From positions 285,102 to 349,101 of the forward strand of contig NW_012236501.1 of assembly GCF_000787575.1 (NCBI RefSeq): a stretch of DNA of 64,000 nucleotides. Direction: 5' to 3'. Made by a program: the position numbers and the translations under genes. The DNA is from Acytostelium subglobosum LB1. Taxonomy: Eukaryota > Evosea > Eumycetozoa > Acytosteliales > Acytosteliaceae. A model generated the notes under the pieces. That model saw only the letters and a list, made by a program, of their open reading frames with translations, was not told the origin of the DNA and did not search any database. Below, piece by piece: positions 11,747 through 63,940 of this stretch. Positions within the stretch are counted from its first letter, which is position 1. Each line of letters begins with the position of its first letter.

Positions 11747-14322
11747 TTATTTTTTTTCTTTATTGGTTACAAGACAGTTGATCTCTTCCAACTTGGTAGT
11801 GACATTAATGATGTTTGATTTATCAGTTATGCATATTTTGATCAACTCATTAAAATGATTATTCAGCACCAACGGTACCATTGGACAATAGGTATCCATG
11901 ATCGATTCGAGTCTGAAATAGATATCATCCAATGAAAATCTTTTGAATGATGGCTTTGGTAACAACTCGATGATTACCACTCCAAGTGCTCCCAAGTCAA
12001 TGTTAGCCGAATCTGCCGTACTTCCTATTACTTCATCCATTTCCACTTGTCCAAACATTGATAAATAAATGTCTTGGGTGTTATCATCAATGTATATGAA
12101 CTCGAGTCTAAGGTTCATGTGTACATTTGTCGCAGAATAAGCATTGTAGAGCAATGCTTTAACCAACTTTGTTATCATCGCCAATGATTGAGTCATAGAC
12201 ATTGAAGAGATATGTTGCTTCAGGTATGATATTAGAGGTCTACGTCGCTCAAACATCAGATACCAAACGTCTTCATCATTGGAGCCAACTCCCTTTTGTT
12301 TGAATAATGCACAGAGTGGCAATGATATTGGGTAGTCCTTGGTTACATCATTGCCAGACTTGACTTGTAATGCCATCTTTGATTGAATGTGAGTGGTCCT
12401 TGGTGAGATCCTATTCTTGAAAACCTGTACCAGGTAGGAATGTTCCCTGAACATATAATCATACACTGGACCAATGTCACCATTCGCCACAGCAACGCTT
12501 GATAATTGATCCAGTTCAATGTTGTCGAATGGAAAGTGTAGCCTGCTATTCAGTGCCAAGGTATTGATATAGAGTAGTTGGTAACTGGTGAGGGCAATGT
12601 CAATGTCTCTTTGCAACATCTTTGATTCCTTGGTCAATCGGTCAAAGCGCACGAGTTGCAACTCTATGAATGTCTTGTATATCCTAAACCTCTCGCTCAC
12701 CACCTGAGAGATGTCCTTCATCATTGAGATTGTGTCGATTGAATCTGGATACATCTCAATCTGAGTCTTTAGATCAATCTTTGGAGCAAAAAACGATCGA
12801 GAAGGGATGTTAAAGTGCTGGATGACGGCACCAAACACAGATGTGCTGATGGTACTTGATATGGCAGTGGATAACTGGGTGGCGAGCGATGTCTTCAATG
12901 TCCTCTCCATTGCCACCAAAGAGTTCTTCATAATTGTTGATTCAAAGTCATCGTCATTCTCCATGATTGAACCAATGATGGCAGAAATCTCCTTCTCCAC
13001 ACACGTTTCCACCTCGGTGAGAACCTTGTCAATAGACTTCTTATGAAGGAATGCCATGGTCTGGGATAGAATGCCAGGTGCGTCGTCTGACTTGTTGGAC
13101 TTGAGGATTTCTTGTTGGAATGATTCGATGCACTTTGGATGGGACTCTAATGCTCTCTTGATGCTAGCTGGAATGCCACCAACTATAGTGGACATTGAAT
13201 TATTGATCTTTTTGACAAAGTCTGTGGCCACCATTTGATCAAATTCCTCCTTCAAGCTATCAAAGCCAGACTCGGTTGTCAGGTCAATGCGCAGCTGCAT
13301 GGACTCGATCTTTACTGAAACAGTGTGGCACTCGAGCTCAATCAACACAAACACTGGATCCCATTGTATCTGTAACAATCTTACAATCCACTTGATCAGC
13401 CTGTCGATGAACTGTTTGAAGATGTACTTGTTCTCTTTCGAGTCTGGGTATTTGATGAAGTGCAGAGAGTTGACGTTTGCGAATCTTCTTTCATCAATGG
13501 ATATGGATGAGCTCAGACTTGAGAAAACCGGACTGCTCTTGAGTTTCGAGTAGCAATCTGCCAGGTGATCGTTGATCACTGACTCTGGGACCTCCTCGCA
13601 AGGATCAATTTCTTTGTTCATTGCCACCACAGCCTTGGATGACTTGGTTTGGGCAAAGAACAGTGCCTCCTTGATGTCACACCAGTCCTTGGGCAGAGAC
13701 CTGATCATCTCGGGCATGGCCTCCACCTCGCCATCTGAGAAGGCGGCGTTGGTGTAGCAAAAGATGACGCCATTTGGTCGGTAAGCATTGAAGAACTCCT
13801 CGCGAATGGCTTTGAGTGATGCATGATCAGTCTTGCTATAACCTGGTACATCTATGAGCTCGAGTCCAGTCGCCAGCAGTGGTGATGGGAACTCGACCAA
13901 CACGATCGTTCTCGCCCACCTCTCGAATGCCTCTGGGTCATCATCACTACCCTGTGGTCGTGCAAGATGCACAGCCAGACGATCCTTTAGTTGCTTCTTC
14001 ATGTCCAAGTCAAACACTTTGTGATCGATTGTGATTGTATCTTTGTCCGAGTATTGTAGTTCTGATTGCTTGTTGGCATGATGTATGATCGTGCCGAATC
14101 TGATGCGTATAGTAGTCCCATGTGAAAGTATGCATATCCTTCCAGATGTATGACCGCCACCTGATGGCACCAGTTGGCATGACAATAATGTGTTGATCAA
14201 TGTTGTCTAAAGTGTGTTTGATTGATTGATTGATTCAATAAGTGTGTTAATGAGAGTGTGGTTGGGGGAGGCTGAGGCTGGAATGATTCCAGCCTCACTA
14301 TTGATCACACAATAAACATACC
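11747..14322 (-). CDS. Dynamin-like GTPase/pseudokinase, copy A (first exon decayed)
   Basis: Member of the window's eleven-gene family. The main exon 14206-11747 encodes 819 residues from TTLINTLLSCQLVPSGGGHT onward. Visible are the switch I-like GGGHTSGRICILS, G3 LIDVPGYSKTD, G4-like FAQTKSSKAV, a long helical middle, and a pseudokinase end (GDIGPVYDYMFREHSYLVQV, YLSMFG, LGVVIIELLPKP). Upstream, a GTATG donor at 14321 and a CTTTAG acceptor delimit an intron exactly where siblings split Walker A. The sequence before the donor reads only THDGK instead of PTHSGK and soon meets stops, and the usual IDDP leader is not found. I infer the first exon has decayed. It may be a pseudogene, or may use a start inside the large exon (14200), which would lack the P-loop. 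Confidence 0.72.
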
Positions 14323-14917
14323 TTTCCATCATGAGTTGAATATTTAAGTTGTAATTATTTTAAAAGAATGATCACTTTAGTTTTAAATCCAACTCCAACT
14401 TGTGAGTATAAGTGTGATACTACCAAGTCCCTACTATTAATTATTTTGAAACAATCAATTATATATATTGACATAATCATTCAAGTGTTTTAAATAGTTC
14501 AAAAATAATTAATAATAATTGAAAGAGATAGATATTTACTTTCATCGGGTACCAGTCGTGATCACTTCAATCACCTCACGTCTATCGATATTGAAGTGTG
14601 TCGCCTTTTGAAAAGTGTCCGAACCACTTCGGAATACGAAATTGTAACCCCAAATCGCGACATTTGATCGACTCATTTCCACCACCTATCTACCAAAAAG
14701 AGTGTGTTGGCCCTGGATAATGATCTTAAAAGGGGGTGGTCATCAGCCGACCACCGTCCCTCGGTATCCAGTTGCAAATGATCCATATTAATTAAATATC
14801 TGGACTCCAACTCTCGAAGCGAAATACAGATCATTGTCTGTCGATCATACACTGTCAATCAATCAATCACTTGTTCACAACAACTCAATCAGATACAAAC
14901 ACATACATATATACATA
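14323..14917. other. Spacer with decayed exon 1 of copy A, then chitobiase promoter
   Basis: About 595 bases. 14323-14540 is AT-rich and holds the unrecognisable remains of the copy A first exon. 14541-14830 is less AT-rich with no gene seen. The last 80 bases are the leader of the GH18 gene (CAATCAATCAATCA, then ACATACATATATACATA). Confidence 0.45.
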
Positions 14918-16162: not shown

Positions 16163-18824
16163 CTAGGACGATAGATTGTTGAGTACTTCCAAACTTTGTA
16201 AGACATCAAAACTATTGGCAAAGGGAAGATACTCCAGCACCTCGAAAAGAGGAACATGATACACTGTTGGTATCTTATCATTGGAGGTGATGATTTGGAA
16301 GATTTCAGACTTTTTCTCGATCTTATTATATCTTTGCATTGTAGGTTTGGGCAACACCTCCAAGATGACAGTTCCAAGTGCTTCAAGGGACATTGGCTGC
16401 GACATTTTAGAATTTTCTCTTAATGATGAGAAGAGTATCTCATTGGTGGCGATATCTATAAACATGCGCTCCAACCTTACCGGCTTGTTCATTGGAACAT
16501 GAATTTTATGAATAATCAGAATATTCATAGCATGAGCAATACTATTGATGATGACCAATGATTGTTTGAATGTCATTGATGATATGTGTTCTGTGAGGTA
16601 TGCCAACAAAGGATCGCATTTCTTGAACACCAACAACCACTCCATTTGTTGTTGAGTTTTAGTTTGGAAGATGCCATGAAGTTGTAACATTGGTGGGTTA
16701 GAACCTCCTTCATTGATTCTGTCCAATCTAAAAATCAATAAAGTAATGTAATCACCAATGATCGATTGAGCCAAGTAGAGTTGATTCCTGAATACTCCAT
16801 TGTAAAATTTTCCAACATCTTCTTGTGAAAGCATGACTGTATTGTTGACTTGAATTTGATCGAATGGAAAATGCAACCTGGTGTCCAATGCCAGTACATC
16901 ACAAAAGAGTGTTTGATATTTTTCCATAGAGTCTTTGATACTCCCTGGTGTCATTCTAGTTGATTTGATACTCCTTTCCACAACTTCAAGCCGGTCAGTA
17001 TGGAAACCTATCAATTCCTCAAATCGATCATTGATCACCAAGTTAATGTTCCTGTTTGACTCAATAATATCTGGATACTTCTTAGCTTGTGACTTGAGAC
17101 TTCTCATGAATGTGGGAAGTTTGAAGTGATCAATGAACGATTCATACAATGTGGATTTGATCGTGTCCATAATTGATTTGGATAGGATGTCACAAAATGA
17201 TATGGAGTGAGTGGACTTGAAATCATCCATAGTGCCAATGATCAACAAAATTGATAATCGTTTGTCTTTTGGATTGAATCGAGCCATGGTGATAGAGCCA
17301 ATCTTACTGACCAAAGACTTCTCTGTCTGATTGATCACCTTGGTGAAGATGTTGTCGTATATGTTCTTCATTTCAAAATGGAATTTGTTTGATCTATATC
17401 TCTTATCCAGCTTCTCGATGGACTGCTCAACAAATTCGATGCTCTTCATGCTGGACTCCAGAGACAATACTTCTCTGATACCATTGGGAATCATATTGAT
17501 TATATCTCCTATAGCTTGAATAAATTCGATAATGTATGTACTCAGCTCATGTTTTGAATCAATCATAATTTTGTAATAGTTGATGTTGCTATCCCGGTAA
17601 ATCTGTAATGTGTTACACTGTTGCCACATTGATTTACACTCGAGTTCGATCATCCTTAGCAATGTGTGACCTTGTTGTTGGAACATCTTTGCAATCCACT
17701 TTATCAGTTGGTCGATGAATTGATTGAACATATATCTCGTTTCAACAGACCTGGGTTGTTTGATGAAATCCAGTGCATTGACAATTGAGAATCGTCTTTT
17801 GGATGCATTGCGAATCGATTTCTCAAGCTTTGAGAAGCAGATGTCTGTGTATGAGTTGATCAACTCGAGTGGCATCTCATCACCTTGTTCAATGTTGTTG
17901 TTGAGTGCAACCTCACTCTTGGACCTCTTGGTGTTGACAAAGAACATTGAATCATTGTGATCGCTCGGTAATGAGTGAATGAGATCAGGCATTGCCAACA
18001 CTTCACCATCAGTGAACGCCGTATTGTCGTAACAAAACATGACACCAGTTGGTGGGTAGACATTGAAGAACTGCTTGCGGATGCTGAACAATGATGCATG
18101 ATCAGAGATGCTGAAGCCTGGAACATCGATGATCTCCAATCCAGTCTGAAGCAATGCTGATGGGAACTCGACTCTCACAATCTTGCTGGCCCATTCTTTG
18201 AATGCCAATGGGTCTGCTTCATTGTCGATATCTGTTGGCCTTGATAGATGTTGTTTCAAAGTGATCTGTAGTTGTCTTTGATTCTCAATTGTGATGGTCT
18301 CATCATCGATACACTCTATCCTGCTGGGATGATCCTGATCTTGGTGTGGTATCACTTTGTAGAACTTGATTCTGATCTTTGTCGAGTGAGCCAGAATGCA
18401 TATCCTTCCTGATGTGTGACCGCCACCTGATGGCATCAGTTGACATGACAGTAATGTGTTGATCAATGTTGACTGTTTGTTTGTTTGATTGATTGATTGA
18501 TTGAGTGAGTAAGATTGATTGAGTGTTGCAATGACGATGACATACCTTTCCAGAGTGAGTTGGACCTGCCAGTACTATCTTGATGTTTGAGTTGTCATTG
18601 ATGTACCAATCGAATGATTTCGATGTGCCCACCACATCACCAAATGCTTTGTGACAATCTGACAGCTTGTTGGTCATGTCATAACACTCTGTCCTGAGAG
18701 CATTGAATGTGTTGAGTGATTCAATCAATCTCTTTGAAGGATCATCGATTGCCTCCAACTCTGTTGACAGTCTCTCAATGTGGTATTCATTGTTGAACAA
18801 CCAATGAGCATTGTTTGATCCCAT
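16163..18824 (-). CDS. Dynamin-like GTPase/pseudokinase, copy B (intact)
   Basis: Exon 1 18824-18546 (93 codons) and exon 2 18472-16163, 862 residues. N-terminal leader MGSNNAHWLFNNEYHIERLS, then the family motif ELEAIDDPSKRLIESLNTF. Walker A is GPTHSGK (87-93), with the intron directly after the Lys and STLINTLL beginning exon 2. Switch I-like MPSGGGHTSGRICILAHS resembles the dynamin region with its conserved Thr; G3 is IIDVPGFSISDH; G4-like FVNTKRSKSE. A long helical middle follows (about 300-580). The C-terminal kinase-like fold has EDVGKFYNGVFRNQLYLAQS, MLQLHGIF, LLVFKKCDPLLAYLTEHISS and EALGTVILEVLPKP. The catalytic residues are not kept. Probably a self-assembling membrane or scaffold GTPase; function unknown. 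Confidence 0.82.
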
Positions 18825-19600: not shown

Positions 19601-19610
19601 TACTTGTCGT

Positions 19611-22359
19611 TTACTTATGATTATAGTTGGTGTTCACTTTGACACTTTGACGTGTTGAGGAGTCCTCAATGAGGACCTCCAACCTTTGTAAGATACTATC
19701 GTGGGCAGCATATTTACAATCCTGTTTTTTACAGTCGAAGAGCCACCGAACAAACTCTTGAAGTGGACCTCGATACCATATTGGTATCTTGTCATTGGAG
19801 TTGATGATACTGAAGATGCTATATACTAATTCATCCTCGAACTTATATCTCTGAAGTATAGGTTTTGGCAGCAGCTCCAAGACGATAGTGCCAAGTGAGG
19901 CCATGGAACTCGCTGTTACATTTGGTGGGTTGCGCCAATCATTATAATAATCACTGCATGGTGGGAAGAATATCTCATTGGTGGCGATATCTATAAACAT
20001 GGACTCCAGTCTGGCATTGGCCAATGACCCAATGGAACGCCCAAAAGCTTTTACGATACTTTTGATGATGATCAATGATTGTTTGAATGTCAATGATGAG
20101 ATGTGTTCATTTAGGTATTCCAACAATGTATCACATTTCTTGAACATCAACAACCACTCTTTACCTTCCTGACCATGTTGATGGGATGTTTGGAAGATGC
20201 CAAGAAGCGGTAACATTGGTAGGTCTTTCGATACTACGCCAATAATGTCCATTCGAGAAATATTTAAATGAATGTAATCACCAATGATTGACTTGATCAA
20301 GTATGTTTGGTTCCCAAACGTTCCATTGTAAATTCGTCCAAAGCTGTAATATGGAAGCACTGCACTACGGTCGACTTGGAGGTGGTCGAATGGGAAGTGC
20401 AACTTGGTGTCAAGTGCCAGTACATCACAATGAAGTGATCGGTATTGTTTAGTTGAGTGTTCGATACTCTCCATCGTCATGCTGGATGATTTGATACTCC
20501 TTTCCACAACATCAAATCGGCTGGTAAGGAAATTCTTTAATTCCTTTTTTCGATTATTAACCAAGTTTAAGCTAAAGCTAATGATCTTGTGTGGTTTGAT
20601 CGTGTCCGGGTACCTCTCGACTTGTGACTTGAGACTTCTCAGGAATGTGGGAGGTTTGAAGTGATTAATGAATGATTGATACAGTGTGTATTTGATCGTG
20701 TCCATTATTGATTTGGAAAGGACGTCGCAATATGATATGGAGTGGGTGGACTTGAAGTCATCCAACGAGCCATTAATTAGCATCATAGATAATGATTTTT
20801 TGTCACTCGAGCTCAATAGTTCCTTGATGTATGTGTCAATCTCATATAACACAGACATCTCTATCTGATTGACCACATTCTCGATGATGATGCTATCAAA
20901 AATGTGCTTCATTTCGTGATTGAATCTGGTTGATCTGTCTTTCTTATCCAACTTCTCGATAGACTTCTCAACCAATTCGATGCTCTTCTTGCTGGACTCC
21001 ATGACCAGCGCAACCTTGATAACATCTGGAATCTTGCCAATTGTCAGTTTCAATTTAACGAGAAGGTGTCTTTGACTCCAATATAGGTTGTTGAATGAAT
21101 CTTTCTTTAGTTTGTCAAAATCAACTTCATTAAGCTTATCATCTACTGAGACACATTGTTGCCACATTGATTTACACTCGATTTCGATCATCCTTAGGAA
21201 TATGTGACCTTGTTGTTGGAACATCTTTGCAATCCACTTGATCAGTTGGTCAATGTATTGGTTGAATATGTATCTCGTTTCAACAGACTTGGGTTGTTTG
21301 ATGAAATCATGTGCGTTGACAATTGAGAATCGTCTCTTGGATGCATTGTGAATCGATTTCTCAAGCTTTGAGAAACAGATGTCTGTGTAGGAGTTGATCA
21401 ACTCGAGTGGGATCTCATCACCTTGTTCAATATTGTTGTTGAGTGCCACCTCACTCTTGGATCTCTTGGTGTTGACAAAGAACATTGAATCATTGTGATC
21501 GCTCGGTAATGAGTGAATGAGATCAGGCATGGCTAACACCTCACCATCAGAGAAAGCTGTGTTGTCGTAACAAAACATGACACCAGTGGGTGGGTAGACA
21601 TTGAAGAACTGTTTGCGGATGCTGAACAATGATGCATGATCAGAGATGCTGAAGCCTGGAACATCGATGATCTCCAATCCAGTGGATAGCAGTATTGATG
21701 GGAACTCGACCCTCACAATCTTGCTGGCCCACTCTTTGAATGCCAATTGGTCTGCTTCATTGTCGTCGATACATGCTGGCCTTGATAGATGTTGTTTCAA
21801 GATTGTCTGAAGTTGTCTTTGATTCTCAATTGTGATGGTCTCATCATCGATGCATTCTAGCCTGCTGGGATGATCCTGATCTTGGTGTGGTATCAGTTCG
21901 AGGAACTTGATTCTGATCGTTGTCGAGTGAGCCAGAATGCATATCCTTCCTGATGTGTGACCGCCACCTGATGGCATCAGTTGACATGACAGTAATGTGT
22001 TGATCACTGTTGACTGTTTGTAAGATTATTCGATTGAGTGAGTAAGTTTGTTTGATTGCAATGATGATTGATGACATACCTTTCCAGAGTGAGTTGGACC
22101 AGCCAATACAATCTTGATGTTTGAGTTATCTTTGATGTACCAATCGAATTGGTTTGGATGTGCCAATCACATCACCAAATGCTTTGTGACAATCTGATAA
22201 CTGATTGATCTTTTCATAACACTCTGTCCTGAGAGCATTGAATGTGTTGAGTGATTCAATCAATCTCTTTGAAGGATCATCGATTGCCTCCAACTCTGTT
22301 GACAGTCTCTCAATGTGGTATTCATTGTTGAACAACCAATGAGGATTATTTGATCCCAT
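19611..22359 (-). pseudogene. Dynamin-like GTPase/pseudokinase, copy C (frameshift in exon 1)
   Basis: Exon 1 22359-22080 is 280 bases, one more than in copies B, D and G. It reads MGSNNPHWLFNNEYHIERLS and ELEAIDDPSKRLIESLNTF normally. Near 22155 an extra base after GGCACATCCAAA shifts it, so the P-loop GPTHSGK lies in another frame. Exon 2 22013-19611 is open for 800 codons and otherwise complete: STVINTLL (Val where siblings have Leu), GGGHTSGRICILAHS, IIDVPGFSISDH, FVNTKRSKSE, then a helical middle and YSFGRIYNGTFGNQTYLIKS, LLMFKKCDTLLEYLNEHISS, LGTIVLELLPKP. The open exon 2 suggests the shift is recent or a sequencing error. Confidence 0.75.
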
Positions 22360-25226: not shown

Positions 25227-27925
25227 CTATAACTTGTTGAGAACCTCTAACATTGGTAAGATACCATCGAATTCATTGAAATTTATCAATGTTTTTGATT
25301 CACAGTCGAAGAGCCACAGAACAACTTCGACAAGAGGACCTCGATACTCTGTTGGTATCTTGTCATTGGAGTTGATGATACTGATGATGCTCGATGCTGA
25401 TTCTTTCCCGAACTTATATCTTTGCAGTGTAGGTTTTGGCAACACCTCTAAGATGATATTGCCAATTGACCCTATGGAATACCAAGATCCTGGGACCAAA
25501 AAATAAAAATCACTAGATGGTGAGAGTAATATCTCATTGGTGTCGATATCTATAAACATTGACTCCAGTCGAGCCTTATCCACTAACCTAATGGATTGCC
25601 TACAAACATTTACAATACCATTGATTATGACCAATGATTGTTTGATTGTCATTGATGAGATGTGCTCATTGAGGTATGCCAGCAATGGAATGCATTTCTT
25701 GAACACCAACAACCACTCTTTACCATCCTGACCATGTTGATGATGAGTTTGGAACATTCCATGAAATTGAAACATCCCATGGTCTTTCGATACTTTGCCA
25801 ATACTGTAGTCTGTTTGAGATTTAAATAAAGAAATGTAATCATCAATGACTGACTTGATCAAGTATGACTGGTTCCTGAATGTTCCATTGTAAAATCGTC
25901 CAACACAATCATGTGAATGCTCTGCATTACGGTCGACATGGAGGTGGTCGAATGGGAAGTGTAATTTGGTGTCCAGTGCTAGTGCACCGTAATTGAGTGA
26001 TCTGTATTGAAAATTTGATAGTCTAATACTCTCTAGTGATATGCTGGATAATTTGAAACTCCTTTCCAAAACATCAAGTCTGCTGGTAAGGAAATCCCTC
26101 AACTCTTCAAATCGATTATAGACCAAGCTAATGTTCCTGTATGGTTTGATCGTGTCCGGGTACCTCTCAACCTGTGACTTGAGACTATTCAGGAGTGTGG
26201 GTAGTTTGAAGTGATCGATGAATGACTCATACAGTGTAGATTTGATAGTGTCCATAATTGATTTGGAGAAGATGTCGCAAAATGACATGGAGTAAGTGGA
26301 TTTGAAATCATTCATTGAGCCACTGATCAACTTAATTGAATCGTAGTTCGATTTCAATAGTTTCATGGTGAATGTGTCAACATTAGTTACCACAGACATC
26401 TCGATCGGGTTGACCACATTCTCGATGATGATGCTTTCATAGATATGCTTCATTTCGAGATGGAATCTGGTTGGCTTGTCATTTTTATTCAACTCATCGA
26501 TGGACTTCTGAACCAATATCATTCTCTTCTTGCTTGGCTCCAGCGCCAGCACAGTCTTGATATCTTCTGGAATCTTGCCAATTATCTCGTCCATTGCAAT
26601 GGAAAGTTTTGATATGTATAGATTCAGAACGTGCTTTGAATCAAGATTTAGATTGTAAATGCCAATGACATTAGGCTTATCTTTTCCTGTAGAGTACTTC
26701 CGCCATACTGATTCACACTGTATCCACATTGATTTACACTCGCGTTCGATCATCCTTAGTAATGTGTCACCTTGTTGTTGGAACATCTTTGCAATCCACT
26801 TGATCAGTTGGTCAATGAATTGATTGAACATGTATCTCGTTTCAATAGACTTGGGTTGTTTGATGAAATCCAGTGCATTGACAATTGAGAATCGTCTCTT
26901 GGATGCATTGCGAATCGATTTCTCAAGCTTTGAGAAGCAGATGTTTGTGTAGGAGTTGATCAACTCGAGTGGGATCTCATCACCTTGATCAATGTTGTTG
27001 TTGAGTGCCACCTCACTCTTGGATCTCTTGGTGTTGACAAAGAACATTGAATCATTGTGATCGCTTGGTAATGAGTGAGTGAGATCAGGCATGGCCAACA
27101 CTTCACCATCAGAGAATGCTGTGTTGTCGTAACAAAATATGACACCAGTTGGTGGGTAGACATTGAAGAACTGTTTGCGGATGCTGAACAATGATGCATG
27201 GTCAGAGATGCTGAAGCCTGGAACATCGATGATCTCCAATCCAGTTTGGAGCAATGCTGATGGGAACTCGACTCTCACAATCTTGCTGGCCCACTCTTTG
27301 AATGCCAATGGGTCTGCTTCATTGTCGTCGATTCCTGCTGGCCTTGATAGATGTTGTTTCAAGGTGGTCTGTAGTTGTCTTTGAGACTCAATTGTGATTG
27401 TCTCATCATCGATACACTCTAACCTGCTGGGATTGTCCTGATCTTGGTGTGGCATCACTTTGAAGAACTTGATTCTGATCGTTGTCGAGTGAGCCAGAAT
27501 GCATATCCTTCCTGATGTGTGACCGCCACCTGATGGCATCAGTTGACATGACAGTAACGTGTTGATCAATGTTGACTGTTTGATTGTTTGATTGATTGGG
27601 TAAGATTGATTTTGGTTGATTGAGTGTTGCAATGATGATGACATACCTTTCCAGAGTGAGTTGGACCAGCCATTACAATCTTGATGTTTGAGTTGTCATT
27701 GATGTACCAATCGAATGATTTCGATGTGCCCACCACATCACCAAATGCTTTGTGACAATCTGACAGCTTGTTGGTCATGTCATAACACTCTGTCCTGAGA
27801 GCATTGAATGTGTTGAGTGATTCAATCAATCTCTTTGAAGGATCATCGATTGCTTCCAACTCTGTTGACAGTCTATCAATGTGGCATTCATTGTTGAACA
27901 ACCAATGAGGATTGTTTGATCCCAT
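25227..27925 (-). CDS. Dynamin-like GTPase/pseudokinase, copy D (intact)
   Basis: Exon 1 27925-27647 (93 codons) and exon 2 27575-25227, 875 residues. MGSNNPHWLFNNECHIDRLS and ELEAIDDPSKRLIESLNTF lead to the Walker A motif GPTHSGK (87-93), again split from STLINTLL by the intron 27646-27576. The intron happens to be open in one frame, giving a misleading longer reading. GGGHTSGRICILAHS, IIDVPGFSISDH and FVNTKRSKSE follow, nearly identical to copies B, C and G. The helical middle differs clearly (VLALEPSKKRMILVQKSIDE). The C-terminus is the pseudokinase: HDCVGRFYNGTFRNQSYLIKS, LLVFKKCIPLLAYLNEHISS, GNIILEVLPKPTLQRY. It is the innermost minus-strand copy, facing copy E head to head. Confidence 0.83.
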
Positions 27926-28470: not shown

Positions 28471-30737
28471 ATGATAGTATTCAACGTAGAGACAAAGAAG
28501 CAGCTACAGGCTTTGATGAAGGAACACTTGTCGCGACCAGAGGGCATCGACGATGACCCAGCGGCATTCGAGGAGTGGGCCCGCAAGATTGTGAGGGTCG
28601 AGTTCCCATCGCCACTGCTCGAGCCTGGCCTGGCCCTCATTGATCTTCCAGGCTTCAGCATCTCAGACAACGATTCATTGTTTGCCATTCGCAAGGACTT
28701 CTTTGAGGTCTTCCAGCCCACTGGCGTCGTCTTCTGCTACGCCAACGCCTTCTCGGACGCCGTAAAGGACCTGATCAAGTCGCTGCCGGCCAACCTCGTG
28801 TCCAAGCCCACCTACACCAAGGAGTTCATCTTCTTTGCCAACACCAAGACGTCCAAGGGTGAGGTTGCCAACAACAATGGCATCGACCCCAATGATGAGG
28901 TGCCGCTCGAGTTGATCCACGTGCACGCCAGTGACTGCTTTGCGAAGCTCAAGTCGTCCAGTCTGAGCTCGAACGAATCGTTGTGCATCGATGACCGACG
29001 ATTCGCCATTGTCAACTCGATGGACTTTATCAGATTGTCGCGGTCCGTCGAGAACAGACATGTTGAATATTCAAACTGTTCATCAATCGTCTTATCAGGT
29101 GGCTGGGCAGACTGTACCAGAAGCATGGTGAACTGGTGTTGAAGTTAGTGGAGCAAGATTGCCACTCGTCATCGATGATGGTTCAATGCAGCACCATATG
29201 GGCATGGAGCTTGACCTTGACAAGCTTCTCCAAGCAGCCAAGACCACAATGGAAGACTTTGACAAGTACCTCGATGATGTTTTGTACGCGATCATTGCCA
29301 AGGTACCAGAGGAGCTGAAGAAGACCATGGCCCTGACACCGACTCTGCAAGAGTTGGAGGCGATCCAGGTGATGGTCAAGAAGACAGCGAAGCGAGAGAG
29401 GAAAGGCAAGTTCATGCTGGCCATTATGGACTTCTTTGACAAGTTCATCGAGAAGGTCTTGGTCAAGGACATTTTGGAGTTGGCCGGTGCGATTGACAAG
29501 ACATACCAGTTGGTTGAGAAGGGCAAGGCCGAGGACTACGTGCTTAGGTTGCTCAAGGAATGCATCGAGGACATTGAGAACGCTGAATCGATGCCGTTCA
29601 CTTTGCTCCTCACCAGCACTGTGATGAGCATCATCAGTGCCAACCTGTACGTCAACCTACTGCGCCACTTCAAGCCACCTTCACTCACGAGGGATCTCAA
29701 GTCCCAATCGCTCAAGTATCCAGATAGGATCGATGTCCTCACATTGAAGACCAAGATTGACACTGAGGTCAAGGGTTACATGCTCAAGCTCAGGGACCAT
29801 CTACAGAGGCGTTATGCAGGTCTTTGTCGTCGAATCAGATCAGCCCACAACTCGCCAGACAGTATGAAGAACTCAAAGGTTCAGTACGAGGCGTTGTATG
29901 TAGAGGTGCAGGCACTCAGCACCAAGCTGCACTTCCCATTAGACACAGTACACGTGCCAAACAGGTCAGCAGTTCTAGGCTACAGTGACATGGGAGAAGT
30001 GTACAACGGTACATTTAGAGATCGATCATACATAGTACAGGTTTGCAAGCCAAGTAAGGTGATACAGTTCAACTTTAACATAGTGGAATGGTCTGTATTC
30101 ATGGGCAAAGGAGTGTCCGAGGAGAGGCCCATGTTGCCGCTGCATGGCTTGTTTAAAATAGGAGGCGGTGGCAGTGGCGGTGGCGGTGGCAGTGGCGGTG
30201 GTGAGCCATTGAAGGAGTGGCTGATGGTGTTCAAGAAGTGCGACCCATTGCTGCCATACCTTAGGGACAACATACATAAGATGACGATCAATCAATCATT
30301 CAAGATAATCAATCGAGTCGTTAAAGCATTGGACTACCTACACTATGGCGTATACCTGTTTGGCTCGGTCATCCACGAATACCTCTTTCTGGAGTTCCTG
30401 TACATGGATGCCAACACCAGAGACGTGTATCTGTCGATGTTTGGTGCGGTGTCCCAGCAGGTTGTATCAAAAGGTCCGGGCAACGTCACCTGTTCAACAG
30501 ACCTGGCGTTGCTCGGTGTGATGATCGTGGAGCTGTTGCCCAAACCAATACTACAAAGGTATAAGATTGATGAAGTATACAAAGATCACGATCACCAAAG
30601 TTGTCAAGATGTTGTTGCCAAACAAGTATAACAATGCTCTGTTGGAGTTGTTGTTTATTTGTTTCAACAAAGATGCGACGATCAAACATGTCATTGCACA
30701 GTTGGATGAGCTCAACGCCGCTATCATTAGACAATAA
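28471..30737 (+). pseudogene. Dynamin-like GTPase/pseudokinase, copy E (no P-loop exon, frameshifts)
   Basis: Starts abruptly in the GTPase domain with NVETKKQLQALMKEHLSRPE; the first exon and the GKST-GGGHTSG region are missing. G3 is LIDLPGFSISDN and G4-like FANTKTSKGE. The frame changes near 29065 (after SVENRH) and near 29150 (around EQDCHSS), then a long open stretch 29159-30631 covers the helical middle and the pseudokinase (SDMGEVYNGTFRDRSYIVQV, MVFKKCDPLLPYLRDNIHKM, YLSMFG, LGVMIVELLPKP). A further change near 30590 is needed to reach the family's C-terminus (NNALLELLFICFNKDATIK), stop at 30735-30737. A GGT/GGC repeat (about 30166-30203) encodes a Gly-Ser insert in the N-lobe. Cannot bind GTP as it stands. 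Confidence 0.8.
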
Positions 30738-31202: not shown

Positions 31203-31465
31203 AGGAATAAGGTGTAAGAGTAATATGTACTGTGAGATAAAGGTGTATATGCAATGAGTAATATAGTTATAAGAGAGATGTTAATAATGAAGATAACATT
31301 AATGACACGGGGTGTGAAATAGATAAAGTAATTCCCCACTTTAAACATGTTTCGTTTGATCAGATGACCAAACTCTGTCGCTCAATCATATCATTCTACA
31401 CTTCTATGACTGTTACTTTGCAACAACACAACTACAAATAACTATCTATTTCAATATTTGCTAGG

Positions 31466-48766: not shown

Positions 48767-49162
48767 CGTAAATAATTAATTCCAAACTAAATTATATATA
48801 TATATATTAAAACTAACTATTTTCAAATGTATCGATGATAGATTTTCTTATATTATATAATATCAAATATAGTTTGGAAACATATCCAAAAATAAAGTTG
48901 TAAAATGACCACCTTGTCCTTCCAAAGGTGATCGAACGTATTATTATTGGGTTGGGTACTATTACTACATAAACATCGTGTTCTTGTATATTACCTTTTC
49001 GTTGACACCGAACCTTCTTCACGACTTAGAACTTCAGAAATAAAAAATCTAGATTTATTGTTGTCCTCAAAGCCAATCAAATTTTTATCTCCTTTGAGTT
49101 GCATATGACATCTCATTTGATATGTTCTGGCTCTCCAACAACACTCATAAACAGATAACAAG
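48767..49162. other. Intergenic spacer before GTPase copy I
   Basis: 396 AT-rich bases, including a TATATATATATA run near 48795-48806. It must contain the divergent promoters of the small gene and copy I. No gene was recognised. Confidence 0.4.
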
Positions 49163-51848
49163 ATGAATGCCAACAACATGTGTTGGACGAACGACTTTGA
49201 CAAGCTGCCATTGGGGGCAGAGTCAATAGATGACCCAATGAAGAGAATGATAGAGTCACTCAAGATTATCAATTCAAGAAAGAGTGTACCGATCATTATG
49301 ATAGTATTGATGATGCACAACACCAAAGTCAATCATTGACGAGTGAAGTCGTACCACAATGTAGAGTCTCATTCAAGTTGGTCTTATCAGGTGCATCTCA
49401 CTCGGGAAAGGTAAGCAGGCATGCAGGCTGGGAAGTAGACATGTGGATCACTCACAATGACATCATCATCATCAACAGTCGACATTGATCAACACATTAC
49501 TATCACTTAATGTTGGACAAGATCTGATGCCATCGGGTCCTGGACACACCTCTGGCAGGATATGCATTCTGTCTCACTCGACAACTATTCGTATCAAGTT
49601 CTTCGAGGTCACATCTGAGCCAAGCATACTGAAATCCATTGAAGATGAGACGATTGATAATATCGTGTCAATGAAGGACTTGAGACAACACCTTTCTGCT
49701 CACTTGCGACGACCCGCCAACGTCGAAAGCAACTCAGATGCATTCAAAGAGTGGGCCAGCAAGATTGTCAAGGCAGAGTTCCCATCACCACTGCTGGGGA
49801 CTGGATTGGAGCTCATCGATGTGCCAGGCTTCAGCATCGCTGACCATGCATCACTCATCACAATCCGCAAGCAGTTCTTCAATGTCTACCAGCCCTCAGG
49901 AACACTCTTCTGCTATGCAAACTCAGCCTTCTCTGATGGCGAGATGATGGCAATTCCCGACCTCATCAACTCGTTGCCCAAGGGATGGAACCTTGAGAGT
50001 GATTCAATATTCTTTGTCAACACCAAGGTCTCCAAGAGCCAGATTGCGATCATTAACAATATTGACCCTGGCGATGAGGTGCCATTCCATTTGATCAACA
50101 ATCACACTGCCCACTGTTTCGAGAAGCTCGTGGCCTCCAATCAAAAGAAGAAGAACATCTCCAGGTTTATTGATCAGAGACGATTTGCTGTTGCCAACTC
50201 ACTTGCATTCATCAAGCAACCCAAGTCCCCCGAGAACAGGTACATCTTCACTCAGTTCATCGATCGGCTCACCAAGTGGATCATCAAAGACCAACTTTCA
50301 AAGAATGTTTGGTCATTGGCAAAGATTGGGAGTGATTTGGATGTCATGTCATCGAGGAAGAAATACCTTTTCGCCAAGTTGGATAACTTCCTTGCTGATC
50401 TTGATAGTCAGATGTATGATGTTTGCGAGAATATCACGCTTTCTATATTTGGCATTCTTGCATCCGTTCCTAAACTCTTGAAGAAATTGATAAGTTCCAC
50501 CAGCCAGCAAGACTCATTGCACATTGATCATACAAATGGCAACATCACGTTCATGAGAGTTGACCTGCTGGATCAAATGCTCACAGATATCGATGATCGA
50601 GTGGCAAAAGAGATTGGACATTGCTTCTCAAACTTCACAAGAGAGGATAGTGTTTCCTCATCAAAGAGATACATCAAGAAGATGGTTGTGGACATTGTAC
50701 GAGAGAACAATAATATATTAGTCAACCTTTTAAATCTTGAGATTTCCCGCGAGATTGGATCACTCATCATGGAGAACATCGTGTCACACTTCAAAGTGGA
50801 TAAAGATACCTCAATCAAAGATACAGATATCCAAGAGAAACTTCAGCTGTTTTCAAACTCAATCAAAATCAGATCATTAGAAAGCATTATCAATATCATA
50901 GTGATTCAACAAATCAAAGCTATCAAGAATGCAATAATATCTAGACACCAAATATATCTTTACAGAGCTAAGACATCACAAATACCTCGCAATATCCAGA
51001 AAGTGCTTGATCGGTACCATTCACACTACCTCGATGTGCTGGCACTCCACAGCAAGTCGTTTAACCATCCAAACATCACAGGGAAATACGATATCCACAA
51101 TCCAGTTGCTCAAGGCGAGCTTGGACCAGTGTACCAATGCACTTACAACGACCAACAGTTCATGGTTCAGGCCTTTGACGACCTCGTATTCATCACAGGT
51201 GTTCTAAAGCTAACCAACAAGGGCACACTGGCCATGTACCTTAGGTTGAACAAACTACTATGGAACCAAAACAATAATGACTTTCCACTACTGTCGCCTT
51301 TTGCAATATTCAAACAACAACGACAACATCAACCTGTCGATGAGTGGATATTGATGTATAGGAATTTAAGTCCAATTGTTCCATATCTCCTGGAACACAT
51401 ATCAAAGTTAACAATAACTCAATCATTAACAATGATCACAAGGTTGGTTAAAGTGTTGGAGCAATGGCCTCACGAGAATATCAAACTGGAGTTCATCTAC
51501 ATCGATTTGGACACGAAGAATACTTACCTCTCGACGTTCGGACATGTTGAATGGAGCCAATTTAAAACAAGACATACAGCCCTAACATCCACAACATCAT
51601 CACTGGATATGGAGTCACTTGGCGTGGTCATTCTTGAGTTGTTGCCCAAGCCATTGTTACAAAGATATACCATCGATAATGTCTCTGAACAAACCTTTAT
51701 CAACATCTTCGAGGATACAATGCCTCAAACACCAACTTGGCTAAGAGGACACCTCATTGAGTTGGTCCAACACTGCTTTGCGAGACCATCGACCATCAAG
51801 AATGTCATTTCAAAGTTGGATGAGATTCAACAACTGGTGGAAATATGA
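49163..51848 (+). pseudogene. Dynamin-like GTPase/pseudokinase, copy I (frameshift in exon 1)
   Basis: Exon 1 49163-49410 starts MNANNMCWTNDFDKLPLGAE with the family motif SIDDPMKRMIESLKI. Near 49272 one base is missing relative to siblings; in the other frame it continues KKECTDHYDS and reaches Walker A as SGASHSGK. Exon 2 49479-51848 (789 codons) is fully open: STLINTLLSLNVGQDLMPSG, GPGHTSGRICILSHS, LIDVPGFSIADH, FVNTKVSKSQ, a divergent helical middle, and a pseudokinase with GELGPVYQCTYNDQQFMVQA, LMYRNLSPIVPYLLEHISKL, YLSTFG and LGVVILELLPKP. It differs in G1 (GASHSGKS rather than GPTHSGKS). It stands alone between myosin I and the kinesin, so it was probably separated from the main cluster long ago. 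Confidence 0.76.
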
Positions 51849-57968: not shown

Positions 57969-60900
57969 ATGACGTCACCAGCAATCTCATCACATCGTTT
58001 TACATTACAACAAAAACCTCAACAAACTGCGACAGTAAAGTCGCATGTTATCAATAACAATGTTGTTGTTGGCAACAACTTTGGCGGCGGAAACAAGTCC
58101 CACTCCAATATCATCTCGGCCACCATCACCTCCAATCTAGTCAACATCAATGTCTCCAACAACTACAACAACAACAACAATAACAACAACAACAATAACA
58201 TTAACAACAACAATAACATTAAGATTATCAACAATAATAATAGTGATATAATTAGACTATCATCAGAGATTGAAGATATTAAGGACCCTTTGACAAAGTT
58301 GATAGCGGCCTTAAAGACATTTGGTGATATAAAGACAAGGTGTCATGCAAAGATAAATGATCTATCATCATGTCAAGCATTACTAAACAATGTCTTTGAG
58401 GACAACTCATCACTAAAGTCATTCACCAAAGACAACTACTCCAAAATCAAACTGATCATATCCGGTCCAACTCACTCTGGCAAGGTATGTCATGATCACG
58501 ATCACTGTGTGTTGTGTTCTCGACCATGGTACTAACCTTGGACTCAATCACTCAATCAATCACATGACACTCAATCACGTAGTCAACATTGATCAACACA
58601 TTGTTGTCATGTCGACATTTGATGCCATCAGGTGGCGGCCACACTAGTGGAAGGATATGTATACTTGGTCATTCACAATCGATCAGAGTTAAGTTCTTTG
58701 TGGTAGTGCCTGCGCTTGGTGATGCGCCAGCATGTTTGAAATGCCTTGACAATGAGACAGAGGTGATCGAACCCTTTGCCACAGAGATCACAATGAGCTC
58801 GAGGAAACGACTCCAGGAGTCGATGAATAAGCATTTGGCGCGACCCGATGGCATTGATGACAAACCCGAGGTGTTCAAGGAGTGGGCCAGCAAGATTGTG
58901 ATGGTCGAGTTCCCATCGGCCCTGCTCGAGACTGGTCTGGAGATCATCGATGTGCCAGGCTACAGCAAGACGGACGACGCGTCATTGTTTGGCATCCGCA
59001 AGGACTTCTTTACAGCCTACAGCCCGACTGGAGTGGTCTTTTGTTACGCCAACTCGGCCGTCTCGGACGCAGAGGTGCTGGCCATCCCCGACTTAATGAA
59101 CTCGCTGCCCAAGGACTGGGACTCCAAGGAGTCGATCTTCTTTGCCAACACCAAGACGTCAAAGAGCGAGGTGGCCATCAACAATGGCATTGGCCAGTAC
59201 GACGAGGTGCCTCTCGAGCTCATCCACTCGCACCAGGCGGCCTGCTACTCCAAGCTCAAGGGCTCCAGCCTCAACGTCACAATGAACATCGATGAGCGAC
59301 GCTTCGCAATGGTCAACTCGTTAGACTTTATCAGGTTGCCCAACTCTGAGGAGAACAGGTACATCTTCACGCATTTCGTCGACCATCTCATCAGGTGGAT
59401 TGGGCGACTGAGCCAGCGACAGTGCGACACGGTGCTCACCCTGATCGAACTGGACTGCAACTTCATGACGTTCAAGATTCAATCGATTCGTCCGTACATC
59501 AACAGCAGCAGCAACAACGTCGCGGACTTTAACCAACTGCTCACAGACTCTGATGCACTGGTGACCGATCTGGTAGCCAAGGTCACAAAGGACGTGAACT
59601 CACTGATAGACACATTGCCGCATATGGTCAAGGAGATGTTCGTGGCCAGCAAGGATTCGATTAATGACTACCTCGAGAATTTGAGGAAGCTGACCAAGAT
59701 CGACCACACGCTCCAGTTCATGGGCGTCGAGTTCCTCTTTGAACGCATCATACTCAAGTTGTTCAAGATGATCGAGGAGCACGTGTCAAGGATCGTGGGC
59801 GCGCTCATCAAGACCCTGCTGGAGAAGAACCCGGCCAACTTCCTGATCAAGTTCGCGATGGAGGACATTGAGAGCACGGCGCGCTCTCCATACGCCACGC
59901 TCCTCACCAAGGATCTAGCGGGCACGATTGGCTCGGCACTGTTTGGCAGCTTCCTCACATACTTTACGGCGCCGGCCAAGACCAAGAGCCAGGTTCACAA
60001 GTTGGACCTCAAGACACTGATCGATCGATACCCCAAATCGATCAACGTAGTCACAATACAGGGCGAGATGCTCAAGGCCTTGATTGAGAAGTATTTCATG
60101 TTCAAGAAGTACCTCAAGCTGCAGCACAGTCGTCTGCTCCAACTGGTCACGTCGTCCAGCCTGCTGCCGACACTGATGACTGTGTGTTTGGACCGATACC
60201 ACGCGCTCTACCTCGAGGTGATCGCGCTGCACTGCAAGGTGCACTACAACTCATTCGACAATGCCGTACAGGTCGATGAGACCAGGATGGTGGCAATGGG
60301 CGACATTGGACCAGTGTACAATGGAACGTTCAAGGAGCAATCATACTACGTACAGATCGTTCGGCCCAAGCGTGGAGACAAGGTCACCCAAAACAAGTTA
60401 ACGATGCAGGCCATGCTGGCCAACAGTGTCCTGAGCAAGGACAACGGTCTGGTGCCTCTGCATGCTATCTTCCAGCAGCACGTGCCTCGTGAGGCATCCC
60501 TTGGCGTGGTCAATGAGGTGGAGTGGCGCCTGGTCTTCAAAAAGTACAGCCCGCTGCTGCCGTACCTCAAGGACAACATTTCGACGCTTACGATGGAGCA
60601 ATCACTGACGATGATCACTCAGTTGGTCAGGGCGCTGAGCTACCATCTGGCCCAGGGCACAGCTCATGAGAACATAAGACTGGAGTACTTGTTCATAGAC
60701 CTCAACACCAAGGCACTATTCCTCTCGTCATTCGGCACGGTCGTTCTGGATAACCATCGACAACCTGTCATGCACCCAATCATCAATAGGTACATGGATG
60801 GTTTGGGCGTGGTCATCTGCGAGTTGTTGCCCAAGCGAATGATGAGGCGTTTCAGTGTGGAGGAGGTGGCGTCCAAGGCCAAGATAACAACAGAAAACCT

Positions 60901-61018
60901 AGTACCAGTACATATACATATTCATCTTTTGGAACTGATACAGATGTGCTTCAACAAACAATCTACAATCAAGGACATAGCATCAAAGTTGGAAGATATA
61001 ACAAAAATACATGTATAG
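57969..61018 (+). CDS. Dynamin-like GTPase/pseudokinase, copy J (intact, Asn-rich leader)
   Basis: Exon 1 57969-58484 (172 codons) and exon 2 58583-61018, 983 residues, the longest of the family. The leader is extended by about 80 residues, including a polar stretch and an Asn run (about 62-95), before the family motif EIEDIKDPLTKLIAALKTF. Walker A is GPTHSGK (166-172), followed across the intron by STLINTLLSCRHLMPSGGGH. G3 is IIDVPGYSKTDD; G4-like FANTKTSKSE. The helical middle has a distinct sequence. The pseudokinase has GDIGPVYNGTFKEQSYYVQI, RLVFKKYSPLLPYLKDNIST, GTAHENIRLEYLFID, LFLSSFG (DFG lost) and LGVVICELLPKR. It ends 21 bases from the end of copy K, tail to tail. GC-rich coding like H. 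Confidence 0.85.
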
Positions 61019-61039: not shown

Positions 61040-63940
61040 TTATTGATCAAGTTGCAAAGGTTGACTGTCTACCGCCTGGAACATTGCTATTCGCTCTTCT
61101 AGGTCACGTATGATATCGCTAAGCTTGATGGTGATCATTGAGTTGGTTAAAGGATTGATTGGTGGAGGGGAGCTTGGTACACCCCAACTAGCCTTGAGTG
61201 CTTCGCCAATCACCAACTGATGGTTGACACTTTGTGTCAGTTCGTTGACACTGAGCTGGGACAGCCGTTCCTCACAGTCTCGGATATCTTGAATGAATTT
61301 CAGGTTGTTCAAGTTCCATTCCAACACTCTGTTGCCCATTGATTGACTTAACTTGTGGACGTCCTTCAGCATGTTGACCTTGTTTGAGATGTTGACCAAC
61401 ACATTTGCAAATTCAGCAACGTCTCGTCTTGGCAGTTGGCTCGCCAGTGTCTTGTTGGGACAGCCAATGTTGCCAAGCTTGATGTCCAAGTTAAATACTG
61501 TTGCATTAATAAATATATTCTCCAATCTAATATCATGATGATTGAATCCAAGGGTATGTATCTCTTCGATGGCCCTGGCAACTGACTCTGCTATTACCAG
61601 GCCTTGATAGTATGTCACTGGGTTGTTGTCCAAGTAAGTCATTAGGTCTACACCGTGACTTGGGTATACAAGTTGTGTACAGGTTGTGTCATGAAACACG
61701 GCGAGAAGTGGTAGAAGGTCGCCATCCTTGTCAGTGATCAAAAGTGTGTAGTATGCCTCCTCGAAGAAGGCCAAGTGTGAAGGTGTGATAGTAGGCGATG
61801 GTTGATTGGCAATGTGTGCCATCTGTTTGACATAGACTGTCCTGCCACCAAGTACGCCAGCAAAGGTGACTCCAGACGGTCCGTATCCAACAATGTTGGC
61901 CATGCCAGTGATTGTGTGAAATGGGTTGTTGAGTTTGAATTGATTGGCCATTGTCTCCATGTGTAGCATGCCAATCTTGTGATGTAGGCTGGACAGGTCT
62001 TCGATGCGCGTCCTTAGACTCTCCAACTTGGCCAGGAATCGTGTATATATTGAGATGGGCGCTTTCATCTCCTTCATATAATCCTGAAAGACCTTTTCAA
62101 TGCCCAATACCATGTCGGGCATGTAGAGATAGTATCCACACAATGAGAGTATCTTCTCCATGATCCTCCTCTTAAACTGTTTGTTGATCACCTTTTTGTT
62201 GGGTGTGAGGCTGGTCCTGGGCTTCTGTACCCTGTGTTGTAGTCTCAATGATTGAGACAAAGAGTCAAACAGCTTCTTGCCAATGTCCCATGTTAGACTA
62301 TCCAATGAATACTCTTTGTCTTTGAGTAGTTCCAATATATATTGGTTGTTTTGTTGTGATTGAATGGCTTCATTACATTTGATCTCTAGACGTCCGCGAA
62401 GTGTCATGACCACCGGACTTGTAATATTGTCAAAGAACCAACGCGATATCTTTGCCTTGAATGCTCCAATGGCCTCCAGTTTGAATGAAGAGTTTCCTTC
62501 CTTGCCATCGTACTGCTGGAGCTCAATGTCACCTGCCATCTCCATTGCCACATCTTTGGACACCTCACATTGTTGGGTGAGTAGTTTGGGGAGCTCCATG
62601 ATTGATTCCTTATATTGCAGCCAAAGGTTGTTGAGGAACTGGTCCACCTGCTTTGGAAAGTCGGATGACGACGTTGCTGGGGATTCACTCACACCTCTGT
62701 TTGGAAGGACAAAGGTGTAGAACCTCTGGCACAGCTCAATCAGCTCATCGAGAACGAACTTTATGATTGAGTGTCTGATTGAGATCATCCACCTCGTCAG
62801 TCGCTCAACGAACCGTCCAAACAATCGCTTGCTGCCATGCTTGGCCGCCAAGAAGTCCATCGAGTTGACCAAGGAGAACTGTGATGGCTTGGCTCGCCCA
62901 TTCAACACCTTTCGAACACTCAACTGTTGAAAGATTGAAATCTCCTCCTGTAGCAGATGTTCATCGGTAACATCATGTAGGTTGTCAAGGTTTTGACTGT
63001 TCTTGAATGCTGCCACGTTGAACTTTGTGTTGGCAAAGAAGACATGTGAGTCCAAATCAAAGCCATCGACAATCTTTGTTTGACTTTTGAAGTCCTTGTA
63101 TGATTGAACCTCTGTGTCTGAGAATGCAGGGTTGACATAGCAAAAGACAGCAGCGTTGGGACTGACATGAGAGAAGAAGTTGGACCGCATCGCTGTTGTG
63201 TAAACATGCTCGTCATTTCTTGTACCTGGGATGTCGTACACCTCTAGACCGCCCTCAAGCATCGGGATAGGGTAACTGATCACCACTATCTTCTGCGTCC
63301 ACTCATCAATGGAGTTGTCATCTTCCTCTGCAGGGCGACGGAGCAGAGGCCAAGCTATCTTAGTCGCTTGCCTTGGGTCGGCAACTGTTGCCAGACTGAT
63401 CACAGGTTCATCGGCGATGATCTCAGTACCACTAGGTACCAACTTGTGGAAACTGACTGATGATTCTGCCAGTGTACTATAGCGTAGTATAGTGATTCGA
63501 GTTGTTGTTACGATGGGCAATGAAACACCAAAGAGAGTGTTGATCAATGTAGTCTTGCCCGAGCAAACAGGACCAACAAAGGCCAACTTGAACTTAGACG
63601 TCTTCTCAACCATACTCTTTATCTTTTTCAATCTCTCCTTTGAGAGCATTATCTCAAGTATGTTTACATTGTTGTTGATGTTATTGTTGTTGTTGTTGTT
63701 GTTCAATGGAGGTGATTGAGGTGGGATGATTGTATTATTGATAGAATCAGAGGTGAAACAAGGGTCTGTAGCTATATCATTGAATGTCTCTGTGATGTGT
63801 GACAACACTGTCATCTGTTGTATAAGACTTGTAAAGGTTGAATGAGCATCATTCATATATCTTTGTCTACTCTCATCTTCATTAGGTGTATTTGGAGTAG
63901 GTACAATAGTATTTAAATCAAATATATTGTTGATCATCAT
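61040..63940 (-). CDS. Divergent dynamin-like GTPase/kinase-like protein, copy K (intronless)
   Basis: One open exon of 966 residues. An Asn-rich stretch (80-91) precedes Walker A GPVCSGKT (about 123-130), here not split by an intron. Switch I-like SLPIVTTTRITILRYS, G3 VYDIPGTRNDE and G4-like FFANTKFN place it in the same family as copies A-J, but identity is low throughout. The C-terminus is more kinase-like than any sibling: VGYGPSGVTFAGVLGG (about 683), then VYVKQM with a Lys at the beta-3 position (about 705), and FNHHDIRLENIFI (about 798) keeping the catalytic Asp and Asn. Only the DFG Asp is changed (IKLGNIG, about 821). It may be the less derived type, or a weak active kinase or nucleotide binder. 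Confidence 0.8.
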   Translation of the reverse strand: MMINNIFDLNTIVPTPNTPNEDESRQRYMNDAHSTFTSLIQQMTVLSHITETFNDIATDPCFTSDSINNTIIPPQSPPLNNNNNNNNINNNVNILEIMLSKERLKKIKSMVEKTSKFKLAFVGPVCSGKTTLINTLFGVSLPIVTTTRITILRYSTLAESSVSFHKLVPSGTEIIADEPVISLATVADPRQATKIAWPLLRRPAEEDDNSIDEWTQKIVVISYPIPMLEGGLEVYDIPGTRNDEHVYTTAMRSNFFSHVSPNAAVFCYVNPAFSDTEVQSYKDFKSQTKIVDGFDLDSHVFFANTKFNVAAFKNSQNLDNLHDVTDEHLLQEEISIFQQLSVRKVLNGRAKPSQFSLVNSMDFLAAKHGSKRLFGRFVERLTRWMISIRHSIIKFVLDELIELCQRFYTFVLPNRGVSESPATSSSDFPKQVDQFLNNLWLQYKESIMELPKLLTQQCEVSKDVAMEMAGDIELQQYDGKEGNSSFKLEAIGAFKAKISRWFFDNITSPVVMTLRGRLEIKCNEAIQSQQNNQYILELLKDKEYSLDSLTWDIGKKLFDSLSQSLRLQHRVQKPRTSLTPNKKVINKQFKRRIMEKILSLCGYYLYMPDMVLGIEKVFQDYMKEMKAPISIYTRFLAKLESLRTRIEDLSSLHHKIGMLHMETMANQFKLNNPFHTITGMANIVGYGPSGVTFAGVLGGRTVYVKQMAHIANQPSPTITPSHLAFFEEAYYTLLITDKDGDLLPLLAVFHDTTCTQLVYPSHGVDLMTYLDNNPVTYYQGLVIAESVARAIEEIHTLGFNHHDIRLENIFINATVFNLDIKLGNIGCPNKTLASQLPRRDVAEFANVLVNISNKVNMLKDVHKLSQSMGNRVLEWNLNNLKFIQDIRDCEERLSQLSVNELTQSVNHQLVIGEALKASWGVPSSPPPINPLTNSMITIKLSDIIRDLEERIAMFQAVDSQPLQLDQ

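Follow-up and report, generated by a model that had tools for sequence, protein, structure and literature searches.

A tandem gene family of A. subglobosum joining a bacterial-type dynamin-like GTPase domain to a protein kinase or its remnant

The dynamin-like genes of a 64,000-nucleotide stretch of A. subglobosum DNA (the window, C25:285102-349101, contig NW_012236501.1) belong to an array that is bigger and more varied than the first-pass annotation had it, with 29 loci genome-wide by our own assignment, not 11. The family has the order helical leader, G domain, helical middle and protein kinase or kinase remnant, in which profile matches place the G domain with the bacterial dynamin-like protein (BDLP) and the mitofusins. 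It falls into three clades, along which the catalytic residues of the kinase are lost in a gradient, and four of its close paralogues carry a homogenised cassette with sharp ends. We lean towards the reading that these tandem GTPase-kinases form a GTP-driven membrane scaffold presenting either a kinase or a non-catalytic kinase fold.

All eleven related loci claimed over about 52 kb were present, at 11747-63940 of the window, the last position being the first Met of K (Table 1). Three queries, namely K, one type III protein and the J G domain with its middle, were run against the whole genome (30.7 Mb in 56 contigs), and a frame scan of the retrieved stretches was added. The retrieved stretches have a G+C of 0.44, against a published A+T of 55.0 % for A. 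subglobosum and of 66-78 % for the other species with a value in the same table (PMC4334915). The search counts are lower bounds, and the total of 29 is our assignment. Twenty loci are located on C25 (A to K and nine further, of which the last stops at 375737 of 376545), seven on C48 within 2.0-22.7k (its first 23 kb), and one each on C37 (245k) and C40 (585k). The array is thus not confined to the window and extends almost to the end of C25. The ends of C25 and C48, both array-bearing, may adjoin, in which case the array continues into C48, and the two contigs may have been broken within it. Clean full-length spliced frames were found in five of the eleven window loci (B, D, H, J and K), and frame breaks or missing exons in the other six (A, C, E, F, G and I); some of the breaks may reflect errors in the assembly or introns that went unrecognised. 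At C40:583500-588000, the dispersed type I copy is of the B/C/D/G kind, and a second family fragment lies just upstream of it.

Table 1. Family loci and interspersed genes of the window (window coordinates), and family pieces on C40.
Feature	Position	Strand	Description
A	11747..14206	-	type I GTPase, middle and pseudokinase; exon 2; upstream leader/P-loop exon not recognisable; Dynamin_N E 1.1e-6
B	16163..18824	-	type I, full length; GT-AG intron of 73 nt (18473-18545) inside the P-loop (K/S)
C	19611..22359	-	type I; leader exon with frame break, remainder open
D	25227..27925	-	type I, full length; P-loop intron 71 nt
E	28477..30716	+	type I remnant without P-loop exon; 3 frame changes
F	31463..34025	+	type I with leader and P-loop exon; 2 frame changes
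G	34396..37018	+	type I; P-loop intron in frame; stop at 36756 truncates the kinase-like C-lobe, whose homology resumes in a different frame (36812-37018)
H	37188..40048	+	type I, full length; P-loop intron 80 nt
I	49154..51848	+	type I; P-loop intron 68 nt; leader with frame break
J	57969..61018	+	type I, full length; P-loop intron 98 nt
K	61040..63940	-	type II, single exon; P-loop GPVCSGKTT; DIPG; Dynamin_N E 4.3e-7, Pkinase E 4.7e-5
Unrelated gene	14792-15991	+	interspersed
Unrelated gene	22793-23536	-	interspersed
Unrelated gene	40363-41274	+	interspersed
Unrelated gene	44565-48080	+	interspersed
Unrelated gene	51879-56591	-	interspersed
C40 family pieces	613-855 and 1046-3833 of C40:583500-588000		type I copy and fragment

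Three subfamilies were distinguished: type I (A to J in the window), type II (K) and type III, which lies outside the window. By our assignment the 29 loci comprise 19 of type I, three of type II (K, C37:245k and C25:369k) and seven of type III. The three types were separated with an ultrafast bootstrap of 100 both in the G-domain tree (24 rows) and in the tree of middle plus kinase (26 rows), the midpoint roots serving for drawing only. The first-pass annotation had ascribed one design to all eleven window genes. This did not hold for K, which differs from type I in having no IDDP leader and no P-loop intron, VTTTR for GGGHTSGR, DIPG for DVPG and a far less decayed kinase; several type I loci are also incomplete or frame-broken. 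Type III genes occupy the two contig ends mentioned above (C25:372.8-375.7k and C48:2.0-5.1k).

In a Pfam scan of ten window proteins (B was left out), Dynamin_N was matched in eight (K, J, H, G, I, A, D and C, E 2.9e-7 to 6.2e-6) and missed in F and E. With the Pfam cut-off at 27 bits, seven window proteins passed, two of them by little (J 27.3, C 27.7), and I fell just short at 26.8 bits. When the G domain was scanned by itself, 16 of the 18 family members used matched Dynamin_N at E ≤ 0.01. Outside the window, the type III protein C48:2.5k matched Dynamin_N at E 6e-11. The residues of G1 (GxxxxGK[ST]), G3 (DxxG), G4 and G5 were kept in nearly all rows covering them, G1 being unscored in rows without the P-loop exon. 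Departures at G4 were Met for Lys in three rows and Gln or His for Asn in two (A and C25:354k), and at G5 Asp for Asn in one row. The Dynamin_N matches and the G-motif residues thus agree with the proposed dynamin-superfamily GTPase.

A profile of 18 family G domains was searched against the PDB. BDLP (PDB 2j68/2j69/2w6d) was matched at E 2.2e-7 and Slr0869, which we take to be SynDLP, at 0.012 and 0.034; these were the only solved structures matched at E ≤ 0.05. The next rows were IniA (0.37) and an unrelated ribosomal protein (0.69), with nothing further at E ≤ 1. The alignment with BDLP shares EYPxxLLxxGxEIxDxPG, and in the switch I context GHTSGR/GHTTAR are aligned onto the BDLP stretch NPCTAVLTV. 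The GGGHTSGR motif, which had been noted in the place of the dynamin switch I threonine, aligns with the BDLP stretch LLPSDVNPCTAVLTVLRY and is therefore a variant of a known region; it is absent from K, which has VTTTR. Judged by these matches, the GTPase is of the bacterial dynamin-like (BDLP)/mitofusin type. The earlier likeness to dynamin, Mx and GBP did not survive, and a dynamin, GBP or Mx relative was rejected, since the profile matches BDLP instead. Comparison of the profile with single sequences of the same genome by hhalign was uninformative (5.6 % for a Fzo-like sequence on C33, 0.4 % for the dynamin C25:220k). Scans of viral contigs and genome contigs, seeded by short exact peptide patterns, found no viral or bacterial relatives, a result that, given this seeding, speaks neither for nor against a bacterial source of the G domain.

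The P-loop of type I and type III genes is split by a GT-AG intron of 66-117 nt, which was clean in 13 of 24 exon-2 frames and sits inside the most conserved motif of the GTPase. The three type II genes read through the P-loop without an intron. The script admitted only GT-AG joins that restored a P-loop, so that the P-loop join is given by construction; the short, uniform intron lengths are not. The G-domain profile begins just past the P-loop Lys because exon 2 starts there.

A strongly hydrophobic segment was found in the middle region of six of the seven type III proteins (mean Kyte-Doolittle 2.3-2.8 over 19 residues), the remaining one, C48:19.9k, peaking at 1.61. The type I and II proteins peaked lower, at 2.09 for C25:363k (at a different place), at 1.88 for K, ahead of its first Met, and at no more than 1.71 for the others. 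The type III segment is probably membrane-inserted, and it may correspond to the pair of transmembrane regions that mitofusins have between their heptad repeats, as described in a 2021 review (PMC8565484). A profile of type III G domain plus middle matched BDLP over the G domain only, and weakly (E 0.027); from the middle region no significant match to the BDLP stalk was obtained in the profile search. The family differs from BDLP and mitofusin/Fzo in its undetected stalk homology, in the absence of the hydrophobic segment from types I and II, in the P-loop intron of types I and III, and in its C-terminal protein kinase. In searches of the genome with the type III middle (10 matches) and with the type I pseudokinase of J (21 matches), nothing was found at E ≤ 0.01 outside the family loci.

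The kinase-model matches of the window proteins were weak and none was above cut-off (K 4.7e-5, J 0.009, F 0.021, H 0.11); the six other window proteins among the ten scanned with Pfam had no kinase match. For J and H, the GTPase half of the proposed fusion was matched (J at 27.3 bits), the kinase half weakly. Outside the window, the type III protein C48:2.5k matched Pkinase at E 2e-31 over model positions 4-259 of 263. The Gly loop, VAIK Lys, alphaC Glu, HRD, catalytic Asn and DYG are present in C25:373k, C48:2.5k and C48:8.9k, and the corresponding complete residues, split across two frames, in C25:357-360k. Canonical kinase residues are therefore kept in four of the seven type III loci, one of these over two frames. 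In C48:13.7k and C48:16.8k Asn replaces the DFG Asp, and C48:19.9k is degraded. All three type II proteins kept the VAIK Lys, HxD (HHD in K) and the catalytic Asn, and have Asn for the DFG Asp. In type I, the VAIK Lys is replaced by Gln in 13 of 16 rows (D, C and C25:354k retain Lys), the HRD Asp is replaced in 13 of 16 (by Asn in six) with a gap in two rows, and no row has Asp at the DFG column; the HRD-column Asp of C25:354k lies inside a low-complexity stretch. The term pseudokinase is thus apt for the window type I copies, in which the catalytic residues are mostly replaced, and does not apply family-wide, as some type III members keep a complete kinase. A complete catalytic set is unlikely to have been regained, which makes active kinase to pseudokinase the simpler order, and we infer this direction of change for the expanded branch.

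The type I C-terminal profile and that of the type III kinase aligned over 224 columns with an hhalign probability of 99.2 % (E 1.2e-19); the unrelated G-domain profile, used as control, gave 0.3 %. On this alignment the type I C terminus is the same domain as the type III kinase, and a kinase fold is predicted for it. Together with the Pfam matches, the alignment supports the claim that a dynamin-superfamily GTPase is fused to a kinase fold. Single-sequence Pfam searches of the type I C termini at E ≤ 1 found PK_Tyr_Ser-Thr in four of ten (best 5e-4) and Pkinase in three of ten (best 2.8e-6), and the one type I member tabulated in the Pfam scan was under both kinase cut-offs. Against the PDB, the type I profile found no protein kinase under E 0.1; arginine kinase (0.078) came top, followed by GSK3-alpha (0.11). 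Among the best 60 of 168 PDB matches of the type III kinase, MAP3K12, roco4, Aurora C, LRRK1, FERONIA, IKK-beta and IRAK4 lead at E of about 1e-14 to 1e-12; TKL kinases are common among these leading matches, and we read the type III kinase as TKL-like. It also matches kinases elsewhere in the genome, such as that of the C27 Roc-COR-kinase gene and one on C36. The PADLOC and NCBIfam kinase matches represent general kinase likeness, and a link through bacterial defence kinases (mad6, 1e-44) was rejected, these matches covering the kinase domain only and being uninformative on defence.

Sequence exchange between copies was examined in B, C, D and G, whose starts are 3.5 to 18 kb apart and which include both orientations. 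Between the start codon and the G-domain end, every 100-column step of their DNA is 89-100 % identical in pairwise comparison, except for the intron-holding step (77-93 %). Identity is 43-88 % over the middle and pseudokinase and mostly below 60 % upstream of the start codon. This block is a homogenised cassette with sharp ends, beyond which there are two exceptions: B and D are 73-83 % identical upstream over about 300 nt, and C and D 71-94 % in parts of the downstream flank. In the six B/C/D/G pairs dS was 0.09-0.20 in the G domain versus 0.37-0.85 in the rest. The type III pair C25:373k/C48:2.5k, 90 % identical as proteins and 99 % in the G domain, gave 0.08 versus 0.30, and the type I pair F/C48:5.6k gave 0.43 versus 0.67, the 0.43 being inflated by the frame break in F. 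G-domain dS was below that of the rest in all eight close pairs, six of which involve only four genes and so lack independence, and the bootstrap interval lay above zero in each, narrowly for F/C48:5.6k. Because silent divergence is lower in one module, sequence exchange is indicated and not merely stronger protein constraint. The dN/dS ratio was about 0.2-0.4 in the B/C/D/G G domain and 0.30-0.67 in the rest, where values of about 0.5-0.7 are also compatible with relaxed constraint. No 60-codon window with significant dN > dS was found in these six pairs (43-50 windows per pair), and diversifying selection is therefore unsupported; the smallest uncorrected p was 0.09.

The first-pass annotation knew of no named family with this GTPase-kinase order, and none was found here either within one open-access library, where the texts consulted hold no description of the fusion. 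In the A. subglobosum genome paper, the family is absent from the table of notable expanded families (PMC4334915). The Roco/LRRK proteins likewise carry a GTPase and a kinase in one polypeptide, and roco4 and LRRK1 are among the best kinase PDB matches listed. Their GTPase, however, is of a different superfamily: no Roc or COR match at E ≤ 1 was obtained in the 16 family proteins scanned with Pfam, for which the C27 Roc-COR-kinase gene of this genome served as positive control. DSTYK (RIPK5) is a kinase with a long N-terminal part. It has been placed near the IRAKs (PMC9573974), and IRAK4 is the best PDB match of K (E 3.8e-4); unlike the present family, its descriptions in the literature extracts consulted mention no GTPase, the comparison being by description and not by sequence. 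The dynamin superfamily of D. discoideum, an organism probably related to this one, comprises DymA, DymB, DlpA-C, Sey1, Fzo1-like and Gnbp in the 2021 review, and a kinase is mentioned for none of them in the text seen (PMC8565484).

Type III includes complete kinases and proteins with a hydrophobic middle segment and is therefore read as a putative membrane-anchored GTPase-kinase. In type I the segment and the catalytic residues are absent, and this is the branch that was amplified. Pairing of G domains driven by GTP would assemble the proteins on a membrane and bring their C-terminal domains together, whereupon type III could phosphorylate and types I and II would only scaffold or regulate. 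Sequence exchange would keep the G domains of close paralogues alike and so preserve hetero-assembly, and middle and pseudokinase might diverge toward different partners. Membrane insertion, assembly, hetero-assembly and signalling are thus what we infer from domain content and divergence. If the fusion works as proposed, membrane assembly by GTP and kinase signalling would be combined in one polypeptide outside the Roco family, and the dynamin used would be of bacterial type. Moreover, complete kinases, partly decayed kinases and amplified pseudokinases form a series within one genome, so that residual pseudokinase function after loss of catalysis is directly testable, and homogenisation ending at the G-domain border is a clear natural case of module-wise concerted evolution.

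Interferon-inducible GBP, Mx and IRG proteins are large GTPases of defence, and the vertebrate IRG/GBP clusters offer a parallel for amplified, diversifying defence arrays. Along these lines it is conceivable, as a tentative alternative, that the family is a cell-autonomous defence or self/non-self array in which type III and types I/II would assemble on foreign membranes or on those enclosing pathogens, with the amplified copies diversifying recognition. The tandem amplification, in which copies arise and decay (29 loci, some of them broken), and a conserved engine, the G domain, beside a fast-changing remainder are consistent with this, as is the report that D. discoideum Sey1, of the dynamin superfamily, acts in Legionella vacuoles and that Gnbp is found on them (PMC8565484). 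Against it, the family G-domain profile matched no GBP, Mx or IRG chain of the PDB at E ≤ 1, so that the likeness to these proteins is a conceptual parallel only, as large GTPases; positive selection was not found in the B/C/D/G windows, and the mad6-type matches, confined to the kinase domain, do not inform on the question. The defence or membrane-surveillance role suggested earlier may apply here, and a fuller version of it seems rather doubtful: an amoebozoan defence or allorecognition system in which membrane-anchored type III proteins and a recombining type I set with interchangeable G domains and diversified recognition regions would hetero-assemble with GTP on a target membrane and switch on kinase signalling.

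It is unlikely that the family serves ordinary endomembrane or developmental trafficking and has expanded in this lineage with no part in defence. Mitofusin-type GTPases fuse membranes (PMC8565484), and single dispersed members on C37 and C40 would suit such a family; however, large variable tandem arrays with pseudokinase decay would be unusual for housekeeping trafficking genes. That the array is mostly decaying, with type I a by-product of tandem duplication and conversion that has little function and only types II and III mattering, is improbable: six of eleven window loci are broken or incomplete, the pseudokinases have decayed and dN/dS reaches 0.67 outside the G domain, but nearly all rows retain the G1, G3, G4 and G5 residues, G-domain dN/dS in B/C/D/G is about 0.2-0.4, P-loop introns are present and five window genes are clean and full length. 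The preferred reading remains that of a membrane scaffold.

Unrelated genes lie between the family members in the window and encode GH18, SET, aldo/keto reductase, a myosin with a TH1 tail and kinesin. No RNA families or tRNAs were detected in the window (tRNAs by ARAGORN with bacterial settings). Finally, between H and I, a large protein encoded at 41370-43226 on the minus strand showed a weak nSTAND_NTPase5 match (E 1.3e-4, under cut-off) and is possibly a conflict-type NTPase.
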